Shown here: positions 6,409 through 16,835 of the stretch, in pieces
How positions within the stretch are numbered: position 1 is the first letter of the stretch
Layout: every line of letters begins with the position of its first letter
IMG/VR virus record: IMGVR_UViG_3300030116_007542
Coordinates: 1-44,236 of that record
DNA: 44,236 nucleotides
Direction: 5' to 3' (one strand)
Source: a virus
Program-made: the position numbers and the translations under genes
The notes under the pieces: model-generated
Databases searched by the model: none
Told to the model about the DNA's origin: nothing
What the model saw: only the letters and a program-made list of their open reading frames with translations

Positions 6409-6485
6409 TGGCAGACCATCTAGGATTCGAACCCAGACTTGGAGGGTTGGAGCCTCCCGTGCTAATCCATTGACACTAATGGCCT
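6409..6485 (-). tRNA. tRNA-Trp (anticodon CCA)
   Basis: Read on the minus strand, a 7-bp acceptor stem (AGGCCAT with ATGGTCT, one G-T) closes a full cloverleaf. The D stem is GTGT/GCAC. The anticodon stem GGAGG/CCTCC has loop CTCCAAC, so the anticodon is CCA. The T arm carries TTCGAAT. Discriminator G is followed by an encoded CCA. The first two bases overlap the TAG stop of the zinc-ribbon gene upstream, so the tRNA must be cut from that transcript. Confidence 0.93.
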
Positions 6486-6999
6486 ATATGTTTTGTGTAT
6501 GAGTACATGCTGGATAACTGGAACATCCCATAAAATCTTTCTTGGAACGTTTTGCAGTTCTCTTAACAAGTAAACTCTCACACTTTGGACAAATGTGTTC
6601 TCCGTCGGCAACATACTTCCAAAGCTCTCTAGCTCTTTCTTTCATATTTGAAAAAGCATTTACTGTTCTATTTACTCTACGTTCTGCTTTAACTGGACGA
6701 TCCTTTTTAAGATCGTACAATGTAACACGAATCGCATCTGAACCTATTTCCCGTGTTTTTTTAGTTCTTCTATCTACAGATGAAAAAATACGGATGGAGT
6801 AACGGAAGTCATCGCCTTTTAAGGCTCTCATAAAATCTTCAGGATTTTCATGTTTGATAACACGCTCAAAAACATATTCATTTGCATTAATGCCAAATCC
6901 TTCTGATTCAGGAGCAACATCATTAATACACTTGAACCCCATTTCGTCAACTAAAACTTTTTGTGCCTGATCAAATGTGAATTCAACGTATCCTGACAT
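6484..6999 (-). CDS. Protein with C-terminal topoisomerase-type zinc ribbon
   Basis: 171 residues. The C-terminal 35 residues hold a four-cysteine zinc ribbon: CPKC at 137-140, then Cys159 and Cys165 in GCSSYPAC. This is the pattern of the small zinc domains at the end of bacterial type IA topoisomerases, which bind single-stranded DNA. The first 130 residues (a mixed alpha/beta region with RYSIRIFSSVDRR) are not recognised and contain no topoisomerase catalytic domain. A role in DNA or RNA binding is inference. A near-consensus sigma70 promoter lies about 40 nt upstream, with AAAGGCA just before the ATG, so early expression is likely. The stop codon lies within tRNA-Trp. Confidence 0.75.
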   Translation of the reverse strand: MSGYVEFTFDQAQKVLVDEMGFKCINDVAPESEGFGINANEYVFERVIKHENPEDFMRALKGDDFRYSIRIFSSVDRRTKKTREIGSDAIRVTLYDLKKDRPVKAERRVNRTVNAFSNMKERARELWKYVADGEHICPKCESLLVKRTAKRSKKDFMGCSSYPACTHTQNI

Positions 7000-7037
7000 A
7001 AAGTGCCTTTTTGTTAATGTTTTAACGTAATATAAAC

Positions 7038-7065
7038 ATTATACTATCATATAAGCAAATGTCAA
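7038..7065 (-). promoter_or_regulatory. Sigma70-type promoter for the zinc-ribbon gene and tRNA-Trp
   Basis: On the minus strand TTGACA (7060-7065) and TATAAT (7038-7043) are separated by 16 nt and preceded by GG. Both hexamers match the bacterial consensus. The site lies in the 83-nt gap between two minus-strand genes, with the ATG of the zinc-ribbon gene at 6999. Confidence 0.8.
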
Positions 7066-7082
7066 CCAAAAAAAGTTATATT

Positions 7083-7568
7083 TTATTCAAGAGGATCGTA
7101 ATTTTTCTTAGGCATAGTTTTTGTAAAATCAAACTTATAAAATTCTAAGAATCCTCTTTGTTCCTTAGTGCCGTCGCTATTTTCTTGTGTGCCGTCTTGA
7201 TACTCACCTGCAATTACTTCACCGGCTTCCATTGCTTGACTTGCTTGTTCTTGTTTTTTATGTTCAGGTTCTGTATAAGGAACTTTATATGCAGTAGGAT
7301 CTATGTCGCCTTCGTGAATAACCCAATAATAAATCCAATCCGGTTCTTTTACTGCCGAAGACAATAACATAAATTTACCCTTCTTAATACTTTCAGTAGG
7401 ATACCCTAATAACCCTTGTATTGTAAGATATGTAGAAACTGTAAGAACCAATACAACAGGAATTACTATAAACATATAAAGTTTATCTTGTCCTTTTTGT
7501 ATTAAATCCCAAATTATTATTGCTAATACAATAACCCATGCTATTATTAAAAAACTAAAAAATACCAT
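7083..7568 (-). CDS. Membrane protein of a proton-channel gene cluster
   Basis: 161 residues, family not recognised. Two hydrophobic helices are visible, at about residues 2-21 and 31-52, followed by a hydrophilic domain of about 105 residues with a glutamine- and glutamate-rich linker and an aromatic, lysine-rich end (FLEFYKFDFTKTM). Its ATG shares one base with the stop of the ExbD/MotB-like gene upstream (TAATG), so the two are translationally coupled. The obvious hypothesis is an accessory subunit of the ExbB/ExbD-like complex encoded just before it. No holin or lysis motif is seen. It is the last gene before the sigma70 promoter of the next unit. Confidence 0.7.
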   Translation of the reverse strand: MVFFSFLIIAWVIVLAIIIWDLIQKGQDKLYMFIVIPVVLVLTVSTYLTIQGLLGYPTESIKKGKFMLLSSAVKEPDWIYYWVIHEGDIDPTAYKVPYTEPEHKKQEQASQAMEAGEVIAGEYQDGTQENSDGTKEQRGFLEFYKFDFTKTMPKKNYDPLE

Positions 7569-8317
7569 TAAAAACCTCCTAATTCATGATCTGGTTCGGC
7601 TACTTCAAGATCTTCAATAATCAACATTGACGGAGGAGGTGAATCGGGTATATTAGGAGCTTCTTCAATTGTTGAAGTACTGGTGCCATGATGAATAGTC
7701 GGCTCGGCGAGCGGCGACTGCTTTCCCGCAAAACGTTTTGGCAGTTTGTTTTTTGAAACTACCCTCCCTTGTTCGTCTACTTTAAATCTAAGTACTGTTT
7801 CTTCTTGCCTATTATGTTTAAGAGTAATTATACTAGAATGTATTTCACTATATGGATTTATTTTTAATATTTGTACATTAACATCTACTGGTCCTTTGTT
7901 ATGTCCTTTCATTGAATATAAATGTATGTTTACAATGAATTCACCAGATGTAATACCACGAACTGTCATAATTTCACGATTTATCCATATTGTTTTCTGT
8001 TCACCATTTGCAAGCATTATAGTATCATTACTATGTCCTAAGTCATCTCTATCTAAATGTAACCAACCTGCATCTCTATTTGGAAATCCTACTATTGTTC
8101 TATTAGGATCTTGCATCCATAAATCTACATCATAATGCGAACGTTCGTCCCATTCCATTATAACCATAAACTCGGCTTTTGCTTCTATGTTTGCTTCTTC
8201 GGTTATTGGATTAATTAAAATAAATGCTATAATAAACAGGAATGCAAAGCCTATTAATACATTAAACAATAAGTCCGTAAATGCTAATGTACTTTTATAT
8301 CGTGATTCACTGTCCAT
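7568..8317 (-). CDS. ExbD/TolR/MotB-like stator subunit with beta-sandwich domain
   Basis: 249 residues. A short cytoplasmic start leads to one transmembrane helix (about 12-35) opening FTDLLFNVLIGFAFLF. Asp15 sits where ExbD, TolR and MotB carry the proton-carrying aspartate. The periplasmic part has no OmpA-like peptidoglycan domain. Instead it contains YDVDLWMQDPN (about residues 61-71) and strands near GEFIVNIHLYS, resembling DUF2135/YfaP-type beta-sandwiches. The last 60 residues are proline-rich and acidic. The gene overlaps the ExbB/MotA-like gene by 11 nt and the next membrane gene by 1 nt. The family call rests on the helix, the aspartate and the paired channel gene. Confidence 0.7.
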   Translation of the reverse strand: MDSESRYKSTLAFTDLLFNVLIGFAFLFIIAFILINPITEEANIEAKAEFMVIMEWDERSHYDVDLWMQDPNRTIVGFPNRDAGWLHLDRDDLGHSNDTIMLANGEQKTIWINREIMTVRGITSGEFIVNIHLYSMKGHNKGPVDVNVQILKINPYSEIHSSIITLKHNRQEETVLRFKVDEQGRVVSKNKLPKRFAGKQSPLAEPTIHHGTSTSTIEEAPNIPDSPPPSMLIIEDLEVAEPDHELGGF

Positions 8318-8765
8318 ACTGCTTGTTCTCGTCTTCTACATTAACTAATTGTATCTTTAATGCTAAAGAACAAATAAGTCCAATTAAGGTAGTATATAAT
8401 GCAGTACTCATACCAAGAGCCATTTTTGTTAGAGAACTTTGTATAGTGCTTGTATTTGATAAGTCAATGTCTGCAAATGCACCACTTAACATTAAGAGAA
8501 ACCCTGTAACAGTACCTATCATGCCCAAGGCAAGGCATGCCTCAGCTACAAACCAACCAATACTAATATCCTGTACTGTCTCTTTGGTTAACTTAGTTTT
8601 CCACCCAATCCAAAACGATGTTAGAATAAAAACTAACAATATTAAAAAACTAATTTTGGTTTGATCTGCGTGGTATAGGTCAACGTGCAAATTGAAGTAT
8701 ACTGCGATTCCACCTGCAAGGATTGAGAGGCAAAATATAAGCCACCATCTTAATAGTGCTTTCAT
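8307..8765 (-). CDS. MotA/TolQ/ExbB-like proton channel subunit
   Basis: 152 residues with four hydrophobic segments (about 4-24, 38-55, 69-95 and 114-138). The third contains GMIGTVTGFLLMLSGAF and the fourth GMSTALYTTLIGLICSL. These are the two signature stretches of the MotA/TolQ/ExbB family: G-x-x-GTV-x-G followed by G-x-x-TAL-x-TT-x-G-L. The threonines line the proton path. The protein is shorter than TolQ or ExbB (about 230-240) because the large cytoplasmic loop is missing. Its neighbour supplies the aspartate subunit, so together they could form a small proton-driven stator in the inner membrane. What it drives is unknown. Confidence 0.8.
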   Translation of the reverse strand: MKALLRWWLIFCLSILAGGIAVYFNLHVDLYHADQTKISFLILLVFILTSFWIGWKTKLTKETVQDISIGWFVAEACLALGMIGTVTGFLLMLSGAFADIDLSNTSTIQSSLTKMALGMSTALYTTLIGLICSLALKIQLVNVEDENKQYGQ

Positions 8766-8772
8766 TTAACCT

Positions 8773-9213
8773 TTAATTTAATAATTTATCTTTAGTATTT
8801 ATTTCCTCTTCGAAGAGTTCATCTGGATTGTTTTTGATTTTTTCAAATATGTTATGCTTTAACTGTTTTATATGATTTTTTACAATCATTTCTGTTACTT
8901 TTAAAGCATCAAACGGACTTTCTTCGAGTATTTGTTCTCCAACTTTTTCTCCTTCTTCATGAGTATCATACCAGGTTGCTTCCCAGACACCTTTTATATT
9001 AGTATGTCGAATCTTATCATACACTATATCATTATCTTTGTTAACCCAATGTAAATGCAAGATACCAATAAATTCATCACCATTAGTAAACCCTTGAATA
9101 ATATCTTTTATACCTAAACTCTGAAAAAACGGAAAGGCAGGATCGTTATAAAGTTTATAACGGAATTGTGTTTCTAATGCAAATCGAAGTTCTTTTTTTT
9201 CAAAATCATCCAT
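8773..9213 (-). CDS. Unknown acidic protein upstream of the channel genes
   Basis: 146 residues, soluble and acidic, not recognised. The middle contains an alternating aromatic stretch with GILHLHWVNKDNDIVYDKIRH and GVWEATWYDTHEEGEK split around residues 50-90. The C-terminal third looks helical (VKNHIKQLKHNIFEKI). It ends 7 nt before the start of the MotA/ExbB-like gene, so it heads this four-gene set. The leader upstream is the structured non-coding region at 9236-9421. A cytoplasmic partner or regulator of the channel is possible but not shown by the sequence. Confidence 0.65.
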   Translation of the reverse strand: MDDFEKKELRFALETQFRYKLYNDPAFPFFQSLGIKDIIQGFTNGDEFIGILHLHWVNKDNDIVYDKIRHTNIKGVWEATWYDTHEEGEKVGEQILEESPFDALKVTEMIVKNHIKQLKHNIFEKIKNNPDELFEEEINTKDKLLN

Positions 9214-9235
9214 GCATATATTTAAGGTAGGAAAA

Positions 9236-9421
9236 GCGGATGGGTTTAAAGGCGGCTAATCAACTAACAACGGACAAAACTCAACGAACAACAATAACAC
9301 CTACTGCCCAACATCAACAAGCATCTGTTTTTTTGGGAGCAAAGTCTTTGGTGTTTTTCCATAGTCAGTATTGGGGGATTATCGACATTCGCCGACTAAA
9401 GCCTCTTCTACTAGCATCCGC
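9236..9421 (-). ncRNA. Candidate structured non-coding RNA
   Basis: The 220-nt gap between two minus-strand genes is visibly richer in G and C than its surroundings. A perfect 7-bp helix, GCGGATG (9415-9421 read on minus) with CATCCGC (9236-9242), closes the element. It is followed on minus by TTTTCC, like a terminator or processed end. Inside are further complementary pieces (GGCG near 9390 with CGCC near 9251; a CAAAG/CTTTG hairpin near 9342-9352) and a long G/U-rich, A-poor stretch at about 9255-9310. I match it to no known RNA family. The plus strand could be the transcribed one, but all neighbours are minus. Confidence 0.45.
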
Positions 9422-9433
9422 CTAACAACTGAA

Positions 9434-9997
9434 TTAGATCAATCCCTCATCGCTGAGTACTTGTTCTTCTTCAGTAGTTAATTCTATTGACTTTTTAACA
9501 TTAAGTTCAAGCAATTTATCATTAGCCTGTTGTTTTTTCTTTTTAAGATTTTTAACTGTATCTTTAAAAGTAAGGATTTGTTCTCTATCAAACAATCCAA
9601 CAGTAATGCTATCTCGACTTGAAAATGTGTCGTGGGACATAGATTTTAATTTATCAATACGCCCTTTTATCTCTAACAGATCTTTTCGAGCTTTATTCCT
9701 GCTAAGTTCCGCATACATCCGTATTTCATGATCTAGCCTGGCTTCTTCAGCAAGTAATGCAGACACACCACATTTTGAATTCATTTGAGCAGTCTTTGCT
9801 CTCATCGAATATAATGTAGTTAAAAGATTAGTTCGTAGTTGGATATTTTCTACTGCTTCTTGCAATTTTTTTGAAACCGCTTCCTTCGGTTCAACGAATT
9901 CATCTACTTCAACAGTAGAATTTATTTCTATCTCGGCTATCCGGGTTTGAAGTTCTTTCTGGATTGCCGCGGATTTACGCAGGTTAATTTTAGACAT
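9434..9997 (-). CDS. Helical coiled-coil protein, unknown function
   Basis: 187 residues, almost entirely predicted helix, charged, with long heptad-like stretches (residues 1-60 and about 90-175). The lysine cluster KNLKKKKQQANDKL lies near residue 150. No catalytic or metal motif is visible apart from one isolated cysteine. It has a good ribosome site (AGGAGAAA) before the ATG. A composite promoter region at 10048-10076 contains both a sigma70-type promoter and a late-type TAAATA box, so it may be expressed early and late. A scaffolding or DNA-associated role would fit, but the sequence does not decide it. Confidence 0.7.
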   Translation of the reverse strand: MSKINLRKSAAIQKELQTRIAEIEINSTVEVDEFVEPKEAVSKKLQEAVENIQLRTNLLTTLYSMRAKTAQMNSKCGVSALLAEEARLDHEIRMYAELSRNKARKDLLEIKGRIDKLKSMSHDTFSSRDSITVGLFDREQILTFKDTVKNLKKKKQQANDKLLELNVKKSIELTTEEEQVLSDEGLI

Positions 9998-10047
9998 CTT
10001 GTTTCTCCTATATTAGCCAAAGTGTTTAAAAGCCTTTATTAGTACAT

Positions 10048-10076
10048 ATTATATGTGATATTTATCGTAAGGTCAA
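10048..10076 (-). promoter_or_regulatory. Composite sigma70-type and late-type promoter
   Basis: On minus, TTGACC (10071-10076) and TATAAT (10048-10053) are 17 nt apart, with GG before the -35 box. The spacer contains CGATAAATA (10059-10067), the same box found before virion genes. The two promoter types are interleaved, so early and late polymerase would compete for one site. Downstream is the coiled-coil gene at 9434-9997. Confidence 0.7.
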
Positions 10077-10077
10077 C

Positions 10078-11088
10078 CTATTTTTTACAATTTTCTGCAC
10101 ATAATCTGTTTATTTTTGGTTTATCGAATGTACTTACAAGTTCATACATCTTTTTATGCTTTAGTACCTCTTCTACAGAATATTTGGTTAAATCATTCCA
10201 ATCACCATCTTCATTGAACCAATCATAAAATTCTTTATAATTATCCGAACTACAATAATATGTATTACAACATGGAAAAAATCGTTTATCTGATGTTACG
10301 TAAAACCAACCATCTCTAGTGCATTCGGGTTCTAACTCTACTCTGTCTATCCATAATTGTTTAGGCTGTTTGTATCCTGGCTTCCATCCATGCGGTGGAG
10401 GTAAGCCTGAAACTTGTTTAACTTCTTTTACTAACTTAAAATTTGTTTTCCATAGTTTTTGTAATTTTTTTTCTGCTACTTCTTTTGTCATTAAATTAGA
10501 ACTTATTCTAAAATTTTTAAACCCTAAATCGTATGCTAATTTTTTTGCCTGTCCTACTTGATGTTCATTATGTTTAAATACAATGAATTTCCAAGTTGCT
10601 ATACCACCGGCATTAATATATGTTTTTACATTATGCATTAATCGTTTCCAAGAAACACCTGCACGATATAAATGATTTGTATCTTCTAATCCATCTATTG
10701 AAAATATAATACTGCTTCCAAAACCTGTAATTATTTCTGCCAATTCTTCAAATGTTTCAGTTTTACCTAATGAACCATTTGTATGCATAGATAATTCTAA
10801 ATTTCTGCCATGTTTCTTTGCTTCTCGATATATTTCAGCAATACCTGGGTGTGACATTGGATCGCCATTATTACCTATTGAATATAATGATTTAACATCC
10901 TTAAACCAAGGTTGGTAAAAGAACTTTTCTTGTAAAAATTCTAAGTCTAAATTTAAATCTCTAACTCCAAACGGATTATAATACATTATTCCGTTGTCTT
11001 CGTCTATATCAACTCTAGTACAACTAACACATTTTGCATTACAAAAAGAACTTAATTCTAATTCTATACGTTTAGGAAAGTATATCAT
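10078..11088 (-). CDS. Radical SAM enzyme with C-terminal cysteine cluster
   Basis: 336 residues from the ATG at 11086-11088. A TTG four codons earlier is less likely because it lies within the upstream gene. The 4Fe-4S motif CNAKCVSC (Cys16, Cys20, Cys23) is the CxxxCxxC of radical SAM enzymes. A glycine-rich strand GNNGDPMSHPG and an FSIDG strand follow, as in the SPASM/Twitch type. C-terminal cysteines (FFPCCNTYYC and CAENC at the end) could hold a second cluster. Substrate unknown; relatives modify peptides or sugars. It lies 5 nt after a 2OG-Fe(II) oxygenase gene. A second, diverged radical SAM gene is at 16873-17865. Confidence 0.85.
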   Translation of the reverse strand: MIYFPKRIELELSSFCNAKCVSCTRVDIDEDNGIMYYNPFGVRDLNLDLEFLQEKFFYQPWFKDVKSLYSIGNNGDPMSHPGIAEIYREAKKHGRNLELSMHTNGSLGKTETFEELAEIITGFGSSIIFSIDGLEDTNHLYRAGVSWKRLMHNVKTYINAGGIATWKFIVFKHNEHQVGQAKKLAYDLGFKNFRISSNLMTKEVAEKKLQKLWKTNFKLVKEVKQVSGLPPPHGWKPGYKQPKQLWIDRVELEPECTRDGWFYVTSDKRFFPCCNTYYCSSDNYKEFYDWFNEDGDWNDLTKYSVEEVLKHKKMYELVSTFDKPKINRLCAENCKK

Positions 11089-11093
11089 TTTTA

Positions 11094-11663
11094 TTACCAA
11101 ATTAGTCTAGAGACCCAGACAATTCTATTAAACTCATGTTTTTGTTTAGGTACCGAGTGGTAACTGCTTTCAGTATTTAAATATGCAAAATAAGTTCCTG
11201 GTAAACATTTTATTTGCTTAACAGGTATCATACTACCTTTTTGTTTTTTATAAAATATAGCACCTGTCTCTGGGTATTGATCAGTGTCAGGTAGATAAAT
11301 GTGCTGAGTTATACTATGTATTACATCTAAATTTAATTTTCTTTTATAATCGTTGTATGCAATTTGATTATAATCTGTATGTATATCTAGTTGCCCGCCT
11401 TTCTTTTGTAATTGAAAAACAGAATTAAAAATATAATTTTTAGGAACATTAATTTTAAATGAGTTAAATAGATATTCTGCTTGTTCTTTTGTTTCAAACT
11501 CAGAACAAAATTTAGCATGTTTACTTATATATATTGCAGGACATAAATCAGGACGAGGATCTGGTTCCCATTCAGTTGTACTATATATTTTTTTATTGAG
11601 CTCTATTGGATTCTCAATAGCATTCTCTTGTACAATATGTAAAAAAGGTTCTTCAAATATCAT
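11094..11663 (-). CDS. 2OG-Fe(II) dioxygenase-like protein
   Basis: 189 residues. An HTD iron motif (His95, Asp97), a distal His169 in YHSVPK and Arg180 in EFNRIVWVSR give the order H-x-D, H, R of prolyl-4-hydroxylase-type and phytanoyl-like 2-oxoglutarate oxygenases. The histidines and aspartate bind Fe(II) and the arginine binds 2-oxoglutarate. The strand LPGTYFAYLNTESSYHS fits the jelly-roll core. Such genes are common in marine T4-like phages, mostly with unknown substrate. It starts on the stop of the small upstream gene (TAATG) and is followed 5 nt later by a radical SAM enzyme, so the two may modify a shared target. Confidence 0.75.
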   Translation of the reverse strand: MIFEEPFLHIVQENAIENPIELNKKIYSTTEWEPDPRPDLCPAIYISKHAKFCSEFETKEQAEYLFNSFKINVPKNYIFNSVFQLQKKGGQLDIHTDYNQIAYNDYKRKLNLDVIHSITQHIYLPDTDQYPETGAIFYKKQKGSMIPVKQIKCLPGTYFAYLNTESSYHSVPKQKHEFNRIVWVSRLIW

Positions 11664-11899
11664 TAATTTACCGAATATGATAAAATATCGCTATCAACTA
11701 CTTCGGGTGTTATTTCTCCCATTTTTATTATTACTTCATGTAATTCTTCAACCATCTTTTCATCTTTAGGATAAAATAATGCTTCCTTAGCACCTATAGA
11801 TTGAAGATATTGTTTTGATTCAAGTAATTGATTGTGTTCAAATGTTATGCCATTAATTACTAATTTACCATTTACTACTGTGATAATAGGATTACTCAT
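11663..11899 (-). CDS. Small protein of unknown function
   Basis: 78 residues. It opens with a beta hairpin (ISNP-type start, then ITVVNGKLVINGITFEHN) followed by helical sequence with two short acidic helices (KDEKMVEELHEVIIKM). It overlaps the stop of the amino-acid-binding protein gene (ATGA) and its own stop overlaps the next ATG, so it is clearly within an operon. No family recognised. There is no signal peptide or membrane segment, so it is probably cytoplasmic. Confidence 0.6.
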   Translation of the reverse strand: MSNPIITVVNGKLVINGITFEHNQLLESKQYLQSIGAKEALFYPKDEKMVEELHEVIIKMGEITPEVVDSDILSYSVN

Positions 11900-13089
11900 T
11901 TTAAGGGTGGTGAATAAAGTAGGCCGCCATCTTTGTACAATTTATTAAGTCCTCGATTTAAGCCTAACCGTGTAGATTTACCTAAATACATTTCAAAAAT
12001 TTCTTTATAATTTCCTACTTGGGAAATTATATCATAAGCAAATGTTTCGCTAATACCTAATTTTGCACCAAGCTCACCTCTTTCTCCCATAAAAATTTGT
12101 ATCATAGGATCCTTGTTACTGCTAAAATCATCTATATTAACTTGGTCTATTCCAAATTCTTCTGCAAGAAATAAAACATATATTGCCCATCTAACAATAT
12201 CTGAAAATTGTTGGTCCCCGTATTTTACTGCTGGACCTAATGGTTCTTTAGAAATAATTTCAGGTAATATTACATGGCTATTAGGATCAGAAAATGTAGA
12301 TTTTCTACCTGCTAATGCTGAACGATCTGTGCCATACATATCACATTCGCCATCTATATAAAAGTCAGTAGCAGATTCTCCTGCTTTTAGTGGTACAGGG
12401 ATATAGTCTACATCCCAAAGTTCAAAGAAATCTTTGATATTCTGTGCGGCCGTTGAATTTTCACCATAACATACTCTTGCACCTGTTAAGTCTTTTGCAC
12501 TTTTAACACCCAAACTTTTACGTACAATAAATCCTTGTCCATCATAATATGTTGTAGGCATAAATTCAATACGCCACTCGACGTCTCGCGAATATGTCCA
12601 TGTTGTTGTTGCTAAAATAATATCTACAGTACCATCAAACAAATATTCAAATCTAGTTTTACTATTAACTTCAACAGTCTTTATCGACCATTCTTCGCCC
12701 ATAACTGCAATAGCAATAGCTCTACAAATTTCTATTTCAAAACCGTCCCAATTACCACCACGTTTTTCGCTAAAACCGGGTTTATCGTTATACGAACCAC
12801 AAATCATGTAACCACGATCTCGAATACGTTTTACGGTTTCACCGTACTCTGGCATATACTCAATACCCATTGTATAAGGATCAGATTCGTGTTTTTTATG
12901 TTTTTCTTTAAGTGCTTCTAGTTCTTGCTTTACTTGTTCAAATTTATCTCTGTAATAATTGACATTAGATGCTTTTCCTGGGGGATAGCCGGCTATTTGG
13001 TCAGCAGGATTAGGACTGCCTGCATCACCAGCATTCGTTGTTAACAAAAGAATAATTGTTACTATAATCTTCCCAACGGGTAACCACAT
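11896..13089 (-). CDS. Periplasmic amino-acid-binding protein (AapJ/BztA-like)
   Basis: 397 residues. A signal-type hydrophobic segment (7-17) leads to a short Gly/Pro linker and a charged coiled-coil-like stretch (about 44-69). From about residue 82 it is a family 3 ABC-transporter solute-binding protein of the general L-amino acid (AapJ/BztA/YhdW) type. Signatures are GFEIEICRAIAIAVMGEEW, TTTWTYSRDVEW, YYDGQGFIVRKSLGV, LPEIISKEPLGPAVKYGD, QVGNYKEIFE and a final GLNRGLNKLY. No permease or ATPase is nearby, so it would have to serve a host transporter or act as a virion or receptor-blocking factor. The extra coiled coil before the binding domain is unusual for the family and may anchor or oligomerise it. 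Confidence 0.88.
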   Translation of the reverse strand: MWLPVGKIIVTIILLLTTNAGDAGSPNPADQIAGYPPGKASNVNYYRDKFEQVKQELEALKEKHKKHESDPYTMGIEYMPEYGETVKRIRDRGYMICGSYNDKPGFSEKRGGNWDGFEIEICRAIAIAVMGEEWSIKTVEVNSKTRFEYLFDGTVDIILATTTWTYSRDVEWRIEFMPTTYYDGQGFIVRKSLGVKSAKDLTGARVCYGENSTAAQNIKDFFELWDVDYIPVPLKAGESATDFYIDGECDMYGTDRSALAGRKSTFSDPNSHVILPEIISKEPLGPAVKYGDQQFSDIVRWAIYVLFLAEEFGIDQVNIDDFSSNKDPMIQIFMGERGELGAKLGISETFAYDIISQVGNYKEIFEMYLGKSTRLGLNRGLNKLYKDGGLLYSPPLK

Positions 13090-13550
13090 TACTTCAACGT
13101 CCTATATATTTCCATTAAATCTGCGTCGGATATAGGCGTTGTCATAGTGTAATATTTTTGATGTCCTACAGACATAAATCCTTTTAAGTCTGCAAAACTT
13201 GGATATGTACTTTGCAAACCTGAAATTAAATGATCTGGATCTAAATGACATTCGGCACACTCGTTGCCTTTTGACATTACTCTAGTTGCGGCCTTATATC
13301 GTTCGCTTTGTACTAAAACTGAGTTTAAATCTTTCTCGATCCAATTTACTTTTTCTTGCATGTCAGGAACAATAAAAAATATTAACCATGCTAACAAAGC
13401 AATAATGATGTAGTCTAAGGTTTTAATTCCTTTAACAGATTCAAACGTTTCACTTTCAATTTGCTTAACTGGTTCAAATTTCACTTCTTCTTCACCGTTT
13501 GTAGTTACTTTTGCTTCTACAGTATCTTTTGGTTTTTTCGCTTCTGCCAT
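13089..13550 (-). CDS. Membrane-anchored c-type cytochrome
   Basis: 153 residues. Forty-odd charged cytoplasmic residues precede one transmembrane helix (about 45-63). A periplasmic domain then carries the heme-attachment motif CAECH (98-102). Met136 in YYTMTTP is placed to be the sixth iron ligand, and SDADLMEIYRTL at the end matches the C-terminal helix of class I cytochromes c. Loops are short, so the heme domain is only about 65 residues. Maturation would need the host Ccm system. The gene shares a base with the start of the amino-acid-binding protein gene downstream. A phage cytochrome c is unusual; electron transfer at the host membrane is the inferred role. Confidence 0.75.
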   Translation of the reverse strand: MAEAKKPKDTVEAKVTTNGEEEVKFEPVKQIESETFESVKGIKTLDYIIIALLAWLIFFIVPDMQEKVNWIEKDLNSVLVQSERYKAATRVMSKGNECAECHLDPDHLISGLQSTYPSFADLKGFMSVGHQKYYTMTTPISDADLMEIYRTLK

Positions 13551-13564
13551 GGCGACCTAATAAT

Positions 13565-13909
13565 TTACTTTGCTTTTCCGATTTGCGTAAGTTTTTTGGT
13601 AATCTCTTGTTGAAACCATTTCAAAACTATTGGTATACTTACATTTGATGTTAGTCCAAATAAATATCCAACCGGATATTTATAACTTGCATAAGGTGCA
13701 AGTTGTGGAATATTTGAAAAAACAATCGATATGAGTAAGTATCCTGTTACTGCCATACCAAGATTTATAAACCAGTCAAATACAATAAGACTTTTATTGC
13801 CTTGATATTTGTCTTTATTATCTTGTCTGTAATTGAATAAAAATATAAACGTTGATGAGAAGGCTACTACACCCATCATCACTAATTCATTAATTGTGAA
13901 TAAGTCCAT
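13565..13909 (-). CDS. Small three-helix membrane protein
   Basis: 114 residues with hydrophobic helices at about 5-24, 40-63 and 74-95 and a lysine-rich cytoplasmic end (KKLTQIGKAK). The size, three helices and charged tail resemble some phage holins, but there is no endolysin gene beside it. Its position directly upstream of the cytochrome c gene, 14 nt away, equally fits a membrane partner for that cytochrome. I cannot choose between the two. It follows the GNAT-like gene by 24 nt, and the gap contains a TAAATA-type box. Confidence 0.6.
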   Translation of the reverse strand: MDLFTINELVMMGVVAFSSTFIFLFNYRQDNKDKYQGNKSLIVFDWFINLGMAVTGYLLISIVFSNIPQLAPYASYKYPVGYLFGLTSNVSIPIVLKWFQQEITKKLTQIGKAK

Positions 13910-13933
13910 AATACCTCGATATAACAGTATTAT

Positions 13934-14395
13934 TTAGTATTCAAAATTATAAGTTGTTTCGTTTTCTTGTAACAATTTGGCGCCATTTCGCAAATGGAAC
14001 TTCATTGCCATTTCAGTTTTAGGACTTAGAGTAACAAACCGGTCAACTTTGGTTCTACTTTCGCTTTTTAATTCATCTACTACATTAAAAATGATAGTTC
14101 TTCCAGCACCTTTTTGGTTAGACCATACAGTATAGAAAATTGCATTAGGGCCAGATATATCAGATTGTAGTAATTCTTCTTCGGAAGTAGGAATATTATT
14201 CAAAAGTGCTATACATAAAACTGCCTCTATTGTATTGTGATACCTATCTTCTGACGTACTAAAATAACAAAACTCATTAACATACATTCGACGATGTGGC
14301 AGTTGGACTCTCCACCAATGTGGTATATTTGGTCTTACCGGATCTTTAGTACATAATTCTTTTGCTTCTTCAAGTGTAGCAAGCCTCAATTCCAT
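13934..14395 (-). CDS. GNAT-like acetyltransferase fold protein
   Basis: 153 residues. The C-terminal third, with RFVTLSPKTEMAMKFHLRN and GAKLL, resembles the end of GNAT-family acyltransferases, where a beta strand with L-S-P is followed by a helix bearing FH-x-x-NGA (as in malonyl-CoA decarboxylase-type members). The middle has GAGRTIIFNVVDEL at the position of the acyl-CoA-binding loop and helix. No substrate can be named. It is downstream of the tRNA-Ile and tRNA-Met pair and probably on the same transcript as the PEP carboxykinase gene. Confidence 0.5.
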   Translation of the reverse strand: MELRLATLEEAKELCTKDPVRPNIPHWWRVQLPHRRMYVNEFCYFSTSEDRYHNTIEAVLCIALLNNIPTSEEELLQSDISGPNAIFYTVWSNQKGAGRTIIFNVVDELKSESRTKVDRFVTLSPKTEMAMKFHLRNGAKLLQENETTYNFEY

Positions 14396-14472
14396 TTTTC
14401 CTTAATAGTAAATTTACTATTATTTAATATTTTTTATTTTATATGAATGTAATTGGTAGGAGAAAAAATGAT

Positions 14473-14549
14473 TGGTAGGCGTGGTTGGATTTGAACCAAC
14501 GACTTCCACCGTATCAGAGTGGCGTTCTAACCAACTGAACTACACGCCT
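14473..14549 (-). tRNA. tRNA-Ile (anticodon GAT)
   Basis: A full cloverleaf is read on minus. The acceptor AGGCGTG/CACGCCT is perfect. Anticodon stem CCACT/GGTGG has loop CTGATAC, giving GAT. The T arm has TTCAAAT. Discriminator A is followed by encoded CCA. It lies 1 nt after the 3' end of tRNA-Met, so the pair is probably processed from one precursor. Confidence 0.95.
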
Positions 14550-14550
14550 A

Positions 14551-14627
14551 TGGTGGGCTAGGTAGGACTTGAACCTACGACCTGCCGATTATGAGTCGGA
14601 TGCTCTAACCAACTGAGCTACTAGCCC
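14551..14627 (-). tRNA. tRNA-Met (anticodon CAT)
   Basis: Acceptor GGGCTAG/CTAGCCC is perfect. The anticodon loop is CTCATAA (CAT) on stem TCCGA/TCGGC, with a T-C mismatch at the top pair. The T arm has TTCAAGT, and A plus encoded CCA ends it. It looks like elongator Met; an Ile2 tRNA with modified C34 cannot be excluded by eye. Its first seven bases are the last seven of the PEP carboxykinase gene, including the TAG stop. Confidence 0.92.
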
Positions 14628-15850
14628 GGGGTAAGCTCTTTCAACTGAATAGTTCCAACCTCACATGGTTGAATTGGATTAGTCCATTCAATATCGTTTG
14701 TAACATACTCGCCATTTATTGCTTGTTTAATACATGCACGAGTTTTATCTAGTGGAAATCTATTGCCTGTTTTGTCCATTCCTGTATTAACTAAAAATAC
14801 ATTACTTTCTTCTTCTGTAACTCTATCCATTAACAAATCGCTATATGTTTTTACAGGCAATGGCATAAACGGACTGCCATAGCAAGGCGAATATACTTTT
14901 TGTACTTCTTTTACACCGTCTTCAGTACCAGGCATTTTACTTGTATAACCTGTTTCAAATAATTTTCTAATACCCATTCCTTCTACCTTTGATACTGCTG
15001 GCAATGTACCGGTTGCATCTAAGGCTAAAAAGAATACGTCTTTAGGATGAGCAAACAAAGCTCTATTAGTTATTGCATTAGGTACACAATCAATTGGATA
15101 ACTGCTTCTTGCATTTGGCTCTTTTTCGTTTTCAATTATTATCATTCCTAAACTTTTTGCATTATCCATTGCTTGAAAAATTGTTGGTTGTGTTTCTTTA
15201 TTAAGTCCATCTGTTTTAGCATAACAACCTGTCTCTACATATGTAAGTCCAGCTTCGTCCCAAACAATTTCGTCATCACCTATTAATTGATATTCTGGAT
15301 CTGCACTTAATGTGGTTTTTCCTGTACCACTCAATCCAAACATTAATGCAGTATTATCATTATACTCAAAGGCACTACAATGCATTGGTAAACGCCCTTC
15401 TAGTGGCATTGTGTAACCAATAATAGTAAATACACATTTTTTAATTTCACCAAGAAAACTTGTACCTGCTATTAATACTTCTTGTTTATCTAAATTAATA
15501 TAAACTGTTGGATTAGATTTAATTTCCATATTATGATAAATTATCCAATCACCTGTTAACTTGTGATCTTCTTTTATTCTATGTTGTCTAAACATGTTGC
15601 CTACAAATTTATCATGAATTACACTTGTAGTTGCTACACCAAAATCAATACCACAAGTACGAAATATACTTCTATATTCATAATCACATGATTTCATTTT
15701 TTCAGCAAACTGTTCATAATCCAACATATTGCCTATCTGAACATCTTTTTGACGATCTCTACATAGTTTAATTGTGTTATCACCAAAATAAAATTTTCCT
15801 TTTGGACTTCTTCCGGTAGGGTATGTATTAACATTTACGTTGAACAACAT
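14621..15850 (-). CDS. pckA: Shortened ATP-type phosphoenolpyruvate carboxykinase
   Basis: 409 residues against about 540 for the E. coli enzyme, which converts oxaloacetate and ATP to PEP, ADP and CO2. Recognisable parts: TGRSPKGKF (Arg14, matching Arg65), EIKK (Lys137/138), PMHCSA (His157), the kinase loop GLSGTGKTT (172-180), IGDDE (Asp192/193), Arg248 before SSYP, FLALDATGTLPAVSK, and VFLVNTG with Arg364 and Thr370 for nucleotide binding. Compared with E. coli it lacks about 50 N-terminal and 70-80 C-terminal residues. Phe132 stands where E. coli has Tyr207, which helps bind PEP and oxaloacetate. The ATG follows AAGAAAGG and a structured leader RNA. Its stop lies inside tRNA-Met. Catalysis is likely but altered activity is possible. 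Confidence 0.88.
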   Translation of the reverse strand: MLFNVNVNTYPTGRSPKGKFYFGDNTIKLCRDRQKDVQIGNMLDYEQFAEKMKSCDYEYRSIFRTCGIDFGVATTSVIHDKFVGNMFRQHRIKEDHKLTGDWIIYHNMEIKSNPTVYINLDKQEVLIAGTSFLGEIKKCVFTIIGYTMPLEGRLPMHCSAFEYNDNTALMFGLSGTGKTTLSADPEYQLIGDDEIVWDEAGLTYVETGCYAKTDGLNKETQPTIFQAMDNAKSLGMIIIENEKEPNARSSYPIDCVPNAITNRALFAHPKDVFFLALDATGTLPAVSKVEGMGIRKLFETGYTSKMPGTEDGVKEVQKVYSPCYGSPFMPLPVKTYSDLLMDRVTEEESNVFLVNTGMDKTGNRFPLDKTRACIKQAINGEYVTNDIEWTNPIQPCEVGTIQLKELTPG

Positions 15851-15875
15851 GTTATTCCTTTCTTAAACGTAATGT

Positions 15876-16063
15876 AAAAAGAGTTAGGAGCCAGGAATTC
15901 TAGACTCAGGACGACTCCTTCTATTATCCTAGCCTGGCTTTTCACTAACTCTGTCAGGACGGAGCTACCGTCCCCCGCAAGTGGCAGAAAAACCTTATTC
16001 GTCGTAAGGGGAAACCCACTATTATGTTTCATTATATGTGTAGGATCGGAGACGAGAGCCTAC
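15876..16063 (-). ncRNA. Structured leader RNA upstream of PEP carboxykinase
   Basis: Read on minus, the gap between tRNA-Thr and the pckA-like ATG holds several exact helices. These are GTAGG/CCTAC (16059-16063 with 16040-16044), AGTGG/CCACT enclosing CCTTA/TAAGG (15980-16020), and GGACGG/CCGTCC (15957-15962 with 15968-15973). A long closing arm follows: GAGTTAG (15945-15951) with CTAACTC (15881-15887), extended by GCCAGG/CCTGGC, then TTTTT (15876-15880). The last arm plus U-run looks like an intrinsic terminator with an internal aptamer-like bulge. This suggests a riboswitch, an attenuator or a stable small RNA. I match it to no riboswitch consensus I can recall. Confidence 0.6.
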
Positions 16064-16073
16064 TACAATTCTT

Positions 16074-16149
16074 TGGAGCTGGCGACAGGAGTTGAACCCG
16101 CGACCTATTGATTACAAATCAATTGCTCTACCAACTGAGCTACGCCAGC
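16074..16149 (-). tRNA. tRNA-Thr (anticodon TGT)
   Basis: On minus, acceptor GCTGGCG/CGCCAGC is perfect. Anticodon stem ATTGA/TCAAT has loop TTTGTAA, giving TGT. The T arm has TTCAACT. Discriminator T is followed by encoded CCA. An extended -10 promoter lies 23 nt upstream. The structured leader and the PEP carboxykinase gene follow on the same strand. Confidence 0.95.
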
Positions 16150-16171
16150 TTCTTTTTTGCAATCGAAAAAT

Positions 16172-16180
16172 ATTATAGCA
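16172..16180 (-). promoter_or_regulatory. Extended -10 promoter for tRNA-Thr
   Basis: The minus strand reads TGCTATAAT 23 nt before the first base of tRNA-Thr: a perfect TATAAT with the TGn extension. No good -35 box is present at the usual distance. It would start a transcript covering tRNA-Thr, the leader RNA, the PEP carboxykinase gene and two more tRNAs. Confidence 0.55.
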
Positions 16181-16245
16181 TTTTCGCGAACAAAATACCT
16201 TATTTGGCCCTTTATACGGGGACCAACAATGCATACATTCTTTGC

Positions 16246-16533
16246 TTACTCTATGCATCCTAATGTTTCATATTTTACTTGTTTCCAAAGTTTACCTTCT
16301 TCGTCGTATTTGTGTCTTATCATGTTACCATGAGAATCACAATGATGAGAATAAATTGCATCGCCAATTTCAAAAAAGCCTGCTTGTTGCATATCTGTTA
16401 ATTGTTCTCTTGGTAGATATTGTGAAGCAACTACCCATTTAGGAGGATATTCTTCTTCCATCGGAGCACATGCAATTAATAATAATATTCCGCTAATTAT
16501 TAAGGTATTCTTCCAACTCGTTGTATTGACCAA
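16246..16533 (-). CDS. Small lipoprotein
   Basis: 96 residues from a TTG at 16531-16533; a GTG at 16570-16572 is the alternative and adds 13 residues. No ATG fits. From the TTG, a lysine at residue 8 and a hydrophobic run end in a lipobox (LLIAC), with Cys22 as the predicted lipidated residue. The mature part is short and hydrophilic (DAIYSHHCDSHGNMIRHKYD) with two more cysteines. It overlaps the glutaredoxin gene by about 40 nt. Phage lipoproteins at the host envelope often block superinfection or adjust the surface, but nothing in the sequence proves that here. Confidence 0.6.
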   Translation of the reverse strand: MVNTTSWKNTLIISGILLLIACAPMEEEYPPKWVVASQYLPREQLTDMQQAGFFEIGDAIYSHHCDSHGNMIRHKYDEEGKLWKQVKYETLGCIE

Positions 16534-16735
16534 TGTATTTGCCGTCCATAATAATTTGTGGCAATTTACCACTCTTTGTTAATCGAAACAATTCTCCAAA
16601 TAACTTTTTATCTGATTCTATTGTTGTAAATGGAATGTCTTTACTTTCTAGTAATTCTTTTGCCTTATCACACCATTCACAATCTGGCATTTTTTTATGT
16701 TTTATTAATACATTTCCTGTTATTTTTAAATCCAT
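16493..16735 (-). CDS. Glutaredoxin
   Basis: 80 residues from the ATG at 16733-16735. An earlier ATG in frame would put the start inside tRNA-Tyr, so I rejected it. The active site CEWC (Cys19, Cys22) sits at the N-terminus of a helix, followed by GKLPQIIMDGKYIGQYNEL, where Pro is the cis-proline and G-Q-Y-N-E-L aligns with the usual G-G-x-x-D-L. It would reduce disulfides using glutathione, typically feeding ribonucleotide reductase in T4-like phages. It is co-transcribed with tRNA-Tyr from the promoter at 16848-16876. Confidence 0.88.
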   Translation of the reverse strand: MDLKITGNVLIKHKKMPDCEWCDKAKELLESKDIPFTTIESDKKLFGELFRLTKSGKLPQIIMDGKYIGQYNELEEYLNN

Positions 16736-16750
16736 TATAATCTCTAATTT

Positions 16751-16835
16751 TGGTGGGGAGAGATGGAGTCGAACCATCACAGCACTCAGGCGGCAGATTT
16801 ACAGTCTGTTGGGTTCACCTATACCCAGCCTCCCC
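16751..16835 (-). tRNA. tRNA-Tyr (anticodon GTA)
   Basis: 85 nt on minus. Acceptor GGGGAGG pairs with TCTCCCC. Anticodon stem CAGA/TCTG has loop CTGTAAA, giving GTA. A long variable arm marks it as class II, as expected for bacterial Tyr. The T arm has TTCGACT; A plus encoded CCA ends it. The 5' end is about 6 nt after the predicted transcription start. Confidence 0.95.

Follow-up and report, generated by a model that had tools for sequence, protein, structure and literature searches.

A three-gene phage cassette related to MotA-MotB and ExbB-ExbD motors with an almost absent cytoplasmic loop

Three overlapping genes of a T4-like phage probably encode a proton-driven inner-membrane motor of the MotA-MotB/ExbB-ExbD class, which, in an infected cell, would act on the host envelope through its periplasmic head. 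The genes lie in a window of 44,236 nucleotides, that is, the whole stretch of DNA that was analysed (positions 1 to 44,236 of the 66,941-base IMG/VR virus record IMGVR_UViG_3300030116_007542). A tail sheath, a major head protein, and a T4-type portal in the record indicated a T4-like phage. The portal shares 52–53% identity with the portals of two jumbo phages, PA5oct and Phosso; a search of the whole genomes of these nearest portal relatives with the profile of the partner (B-subunit) gave no match.

Composition of the cassette and the A-subunit

The genes of the cassette and their main features are as follows:

8307-8765, minus strand: A-subunit gene, 152 aa, MotA/TolQ/ExbB family, PF01618 match, four hydrophobic segments as judged from the sequence
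8664-8666, minus strand: codon of A-subunit Asp34, a residue of the TM1-TM2 loop that does not vary among the aligned phage relatives
8511-8513, minus strand: codon of A-subunit Thr85 (in GMIGTVTGF), aligned to the ExbB pore residue Thr148
8388-8390, minus strand: codon of A-subunit Thr126 (in STALYTTLIGL), aligned to the ExbB pore residue Thr181
7568-8317, minus strand: B-subunit (partner) gene, 249 aa, helix 8-35, beta-sandwich 50-190, and low-confidence C-terminal tail (AlphaFold2)
8273-8275, minus strand: codon of partner Asp15 (in FTDLLFN), putative stator aspartate, conserved as Asp in 65 of the 66 partners aligned; hhalign places it on ExbD Asp25, although in a non-significant match
7748-8170, minus strand: DUF2135-like beta-sandwich of the partner, from the fold model and hhalign to DUF2135
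7083-7568, minus strand: third-subunit gene, 161 aa, modelled membrane helices 2-25 and 29-54 and a small alpha/beta domain

The three overlapping genes claimed in the sequence-only reading are real open reading frames, with overlaps of 11 nt between the A-subunit and partner genes and 1 nt between the partner and third-subunit genes. A PHROG search with all three proteins gave nothing significant. Matches in NCBIfam and PADLOC were obtained for the A-subunit only, all of them to the MotA/ZorA core, and the partner and the third protein matched neither collection.

Several other genes of the window were noted. Immediately downstream of the cassette, the gene at 6484-6999 (minus strand) encodes a C-terminal topoisomerase-type C4 zinc ribbon (PF01396, 5.4e-11). 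Overlapping genes at 10078-11663 (minus strand) gave a radical SAM match (PF04055, 8.1e-10) and a weak 2OG-Fe(II) oxygenase-like match, and the gene at 11896-13089 (minus strand) matched the extracellular solute-binding protein family 3 (PF00497, 3.2e-11), which is unusual for a phage. Five tRNA genes (Trp, Ile, Met, Thr, and Tyr), all on the minus strand, are located within 6409-16835.

The A-subunit matched the Pfam family PF01618 (MotA_ExbB) with an E-value of 1.6e-7 and 31.5 bits, above the curated cut-off of 22.9, and the same family was matched by all 25 A-subunit relatives tested (E<=1; best 7e-9). The proposed MotA/TolQ/ExbB-like identity of the protein was thus borne out. Both family signatures that had been read from the sequence, GMIGTVTGF and STALYTTLIGL, were also conserved in the alignments, where Thr85 and Thr126 lined up with Thr148 and Thr181 of Escherichia coli ExbB. 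Thr126 was invariant in both alignments, A1 and A8; Thr85 was invariant in A8 and varied in some Rhizobium phages of the wider set. Asp34 is a family-specific mark of the aligned phage relatives.

Profile comparisons placed the phage A-subunit closest to a longer form encoded on bacterial chromosomes (hhalign probability 99.9%, with the loop missing). A joint profile bridging the phage and bacterial sequences matched ExbB/TolQ/MotA over TM3-TM4 with a probability of 92% and an E-value of 5e-7; the phage profile alone gave a modest value of 38%, with PDB matches at E 0.18–0.43. The link of the A-subunit to ExbB/TolQ/MotA thus runs through Pfam and the bacterial long form, and the structural match to these proteins that had been set as a check was assessed with sequence profiles.

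The loop between TM2 and TM3 had a median length of 18 residues in the phage A-subunits (12–52), compared with a median of 79 in the bacterial long form and 90–110 in ExbB/TolQ/MotA. The cytoplasmic domain that separates the helix pairs in the PF01618 family was thus not found in the phage protein, and the absence of a large loop suspected earlier was confirmed. The core is present, and the short loop marks a variant of the family. A survey of these motors described non-flagellar members whose cytoplasmic domains are condensed to two or three helices and which bear various DUF appendages (PMC12505986); the phage protein, in which this domain is nearly gone, falls outside that range.

The partner and the third subunit

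In the AlphaFold2 model of the partner (mean pLDDT 82.5), one N-terminal helix (residues 8-35) is followed by a confident sandwich (50-190). Asp15 lies in this helix, and its conservation in relatives had been set as a test beforehand; the only exception among the 66 aligned partners was a Bradyrhizobium sequence (L126). The claim of a single-helix partner with a stator aspartate was therefore upheld. A comparison of the very short helix with ExbD/TolR/MotB yielded a non-significant hhalign probability of 0.2% and an E-value of 0.16, with Asp15 placed on ExbD Asp25. The protein is therefore assigned as a putative B-subunit from its topology, the position of its gene, and the conserved Asp.

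The head of the partner was not of a type found in the known B-subunits: no match to OmpA or ExbD Pfam families was detected, and the sandwich compared with the ExbD set gave 0.1%. The same sandwich matched DUF2135 members with an hhalign probability of 77.7% and an E-value of 1.9e-5, compared with 0.1–0.3% for the controls, and it carries invariant DxD and LDxDDxG motifs. In a Pfam search for PF09906 (DUF2135), the partner of the window gave no match and two relatives matched below the curated cut-off (best E 0.021). Together, the fold model and the profile comparison agree with the earlier suggestion that a DUF2135-like sandwich replaces the peptidoglycan-binding domain. The best solved relative of the partner model was 2qng (E 2.6e-4); a TerD identity, considered on the basis of this fold match, was ruled out (hhalign 0.3%).

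The third protein was modelled with a pLDDT of 72 as two helices and a small alpha/beta domain, as expected from the two-helix protein described previously, and a fold search against the PDB gave no match at E 0.001. The loop between the helices is short and basic, which suggests, by the positive-inside rule, that the small C-terminal domain is probably periplasmic. The gene 7 nt upstream of the cassette had been proposed as a fourth component. This candidate was rejected, as relatives were present in just 6 of 82 loci and other loci had different upstream genes.

These features relate the cassette to several known motors (the comparison of each being given here for the phage proteins). With ExbB-ExbD and TolQ-TolR it shares the PF01618 core, the GT and T..GL signatures, the pore threonines, and a one-helix partner that has a membrane aspartate and is encoded directly downstream. 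However, the phage A-subunit has two N-terminal helices before the loop, unlike the single helix of ExbB/TolQ, and a cytoplasmic loop of about 18 residues instead of 90; the partner head is DUF2135-like and not an ExbD/TolR domain, and a two-helix third protein stands in place of TonB/TolA. MotA-MotB resembles the cassette in the four membrane helices of the A-subunit and the proton-binding Asp in the B helix, but the cytoplasmic torque domain, the OmpA-like peptidoglycan-binding domain, and the flagellar context are absent from the phage system. The likeness to ZorA-ZorB of the Zorya system is limited to a distant MotA-like core with weak ZorA profile matches, whereas the ZorA cytoplasmic tail, a peptidoglycan-binding ZorB, and ZorC/D/E are all lacking. 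Membership in Zorya was ruled out, as the weak match covered the ZorA core alone and the other two proteins had no PADLOC match.

Distribution in phages and bacterial chromosomes

The A-subunit scan of IMG/VR revealed 39 relatives, and the scan with the partner profile detected relatives on at least 346 contigs. These belong to a large number of uncultured phages, the majority apparently marine; two of the contigs reach 328 and 527 kb. Eighty of the 346 partner-profile relatives were retrieved. The three family profiles were run over all phage loci, of which 82 were left once duplicates had been taken out. All three genes were present in 78 of the 82 loci; in the remaining four (L074, L077, L081, and L086) the contig ended at the missing gene. 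Thus, co-conservation of the three gene families in every locus where the region was visible (78/78) is not a matter of chance. The genes were adjacent, in the order A-subunit, partner, third subunit, in 71 of the complete loci, including the window, and were separated by insertions of 155–1343 bases in the other seven. The gene order anticipated for phage genomes was consequently recovered for three genes, but not for a fourth.

No other gene family recurred as a neighbour in more than 13 of the 82 loci. In six loci, a small membrane gene, MscS-like by eye, was located downstream of the third subunit (for example, L079:9728-10135). An orotidine 5'-phosphate decarboxylase-like gene was located between the partner and the third subunit in L026, L027, and L028 (PF00215 on the L027 protein). 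An association with a trypsin-like protease was rejected, since it was seen in just some Rhizobium phages, with the motif in one other locus.

Among 50,697 phage records, the partner was found in 27 isolate records, all of them phages of Rhizobium or Sinorhizobium, and each of four different partner queries gave 27 records. The annotations call the genes hypothetical or give them a number; profile matches identified those of phage 16-3 as p038, p040, and p042. The 27 records represent about four unrelated kinds of phage:

Pootjesviridae and RHph_I1_18, 153-171 kb
N3_19 group, 68 kb
16-3 group, 59-64 kb, with 16-3 being temperate
X2_25

The occurrence of the cassette in about four unrelated kinds of phage, all rhizobial, indicates that its distribution is tied more to the host than to phage ancestry.

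The sequence-only reading had described the system as phage-encoded. This holds for the phage loci, but the triad is not purely viral, as chromosomes of Bradyrhizobium and Burkholderiales share the gene order with a longer A-subunit. The bacterial genome scan yielded at least 559 confirmed relatives. Of the 80 retrieved, mostly from Bradyrhizobium and otherwise from Burkholderiales and related metagenome bins, 71 had the A-subunit, partner, and third-subunit genes in that order. The triad was present in 14 of 299 genomes from across the Pseudomonadota. Partners of the chromosomal and phage triads are 35–40% identical, and in the unrooted partner tree all bacterial sequences grouped together in a clade (96/94), among deep branches of phage sequences. 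The Bradyrhizobium partner that was checked (L126) differs in having DPLGVMLFK where the others have Asp, so this version may not use that residue. As far as could be found, the chromosomal triad has not been characterised; the annotation of phage AF3 names the Bradyrhizobium protein Bll5685.

The surroundings of the chromosomal triad differed between the groups. In Bradyrhizobium (L124-L126 and other loci) it is located near a sensor kinase/response regulator pair. In several Burkholderiales it follows pqqBCDE, near genes for a PQQ alcohol dehydrogenase, a quinoprotein relay, or PedC. In four of these loci (L131, L133, L134, and L152) the triad lies directly behind pqqBCDE and is followed by a conserved putative lipoprotein gene, which was also observed in Comamonas (L123 and L127).

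Proposed mechanism and alternative explanations

According to the reading that we favour, the products of the three genes would form one inner-membrane machine of the MotA-MotB/ExbB-ExbD class. A ring of A-subunits would surround a dimer of B-subunit helices, most likely with a 5:2 stoichiometry. Protons, or possibly another ion, would pass Asp15 of the partner and the ring of Thr85 and Thr126, and this passage would drive movement of the B-subunit dimer, whose periplasmic part would be a DUF2135-like head instead of a peptidoglycan-binding domain. The third subunit would be an obligate partner in the membrane and the periplasm. With so little of a cytoplasmic loop left in the phage A-subunit, the motor would exert its work in the periplasm rather than on a rotor in the cytoplasm. 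Its most likely use during infection is to act on the host envelope, by stabilising or remodelling it or by blocking later phages. This role in infection is the weakest step of the reading. Since the genomic context varies between phages, the role is not fixed by the neighbouring genes. In three Pootjesviridae genomes, however, the cassette lies between a topoisomerase/gyrase gene and a late sigma factor and not among virion or lysis genes; neighbours that serve replication and transcription speak for a use in the course of infection and against a function in lysis or virion structure.

The same position bears on a different explanation, in which the cassette would let protons leak in a controlled way or assist lysis, as a channel without a gate that lowers the membrane potential in the manner of a pinholin. 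Loss of the cytoplasmic loop could indeed remove control, and by eye an M15-like peptidase was seen upstream in some loci (L006 and L008) and spanin-like genes near others. Nevertheless, lysis genes were not recurrent neighbours, a leak would need neither the conserved sandwich nor the third subunit, and the cassettes of the three Pootjesviridae genomes do not sit with such genes; we regard this explanation as improbable. Superinfection exclusion, in which an early-made motor alters an outer-membrane receptor or blocks the DNA entry of later phages, is a somewhat better candidate, though still unlikely. It would be consistent with the presence of the cassette at different genomic places in the temperate phage 16-3 and in large T4-like phages, and with the tie to the host implied by the Rhizobium/Sinorhizobium isolates; yet no link to a known exclusion gene was detected, and the immX genes of 16-3 are near the cassette without adjoining it.

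The chromosomal triads suggest that a phage might instead sustain an envelope process of its host that is normally served by the bacterial version, for example that of PQQ-dependent dehydrogenases. The position of the long form behind pqqBCDE in several Burkholderiales favours such a metabolic helper, but the Comamonas and Bradyrhizobium loci inspected were without such PQQ genes, none was seen among the recurrent phage neighbours, and the bacterial partners form a separate clade, so that we give this explanation little weight. Far less probable still is that the cassette acts as a decoy for a defence motor of the host, for example Zorya, with the short A-subunit mixing with ZorA and poisoning it. 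The weak ZorA profile matches (1.2e-6 in PADLOC) invite the idea, but they cover only the shared channel core, the cassette brings its own B-subunit and third subunit, and the chromosomal counterpart shows no sign of surrounding defence genes.

Setting these alternatives beside the proposed envelope motor, we tentatively suggest that the cassette represents a phage-adapted class of proton-driven motor that has lost its cytoplasmic domain and gained a third membrane subunit and a DUF2135-like head, that alphaproteobacterial phages use it for mechanical work on the host envelope, and that it might be the first motor of this type to serve phages as a tool. No earlier description of a phage-encoded MotA/ExbB-type motor was found in the open-access literature, which is weak evidence of absence.

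Phages use the Ton and Tol motors of their hosts for cell entry. If the proposed reading is true, phages also bring machines of the same class for use inside the infected cell. Since isolates infecting laboratory rhizobia carry the cassette, its function is directly testable, and the near-absent cytoplasmic domain would offer a minimal system for studying the conversion of proton flow into force in the periplasm.
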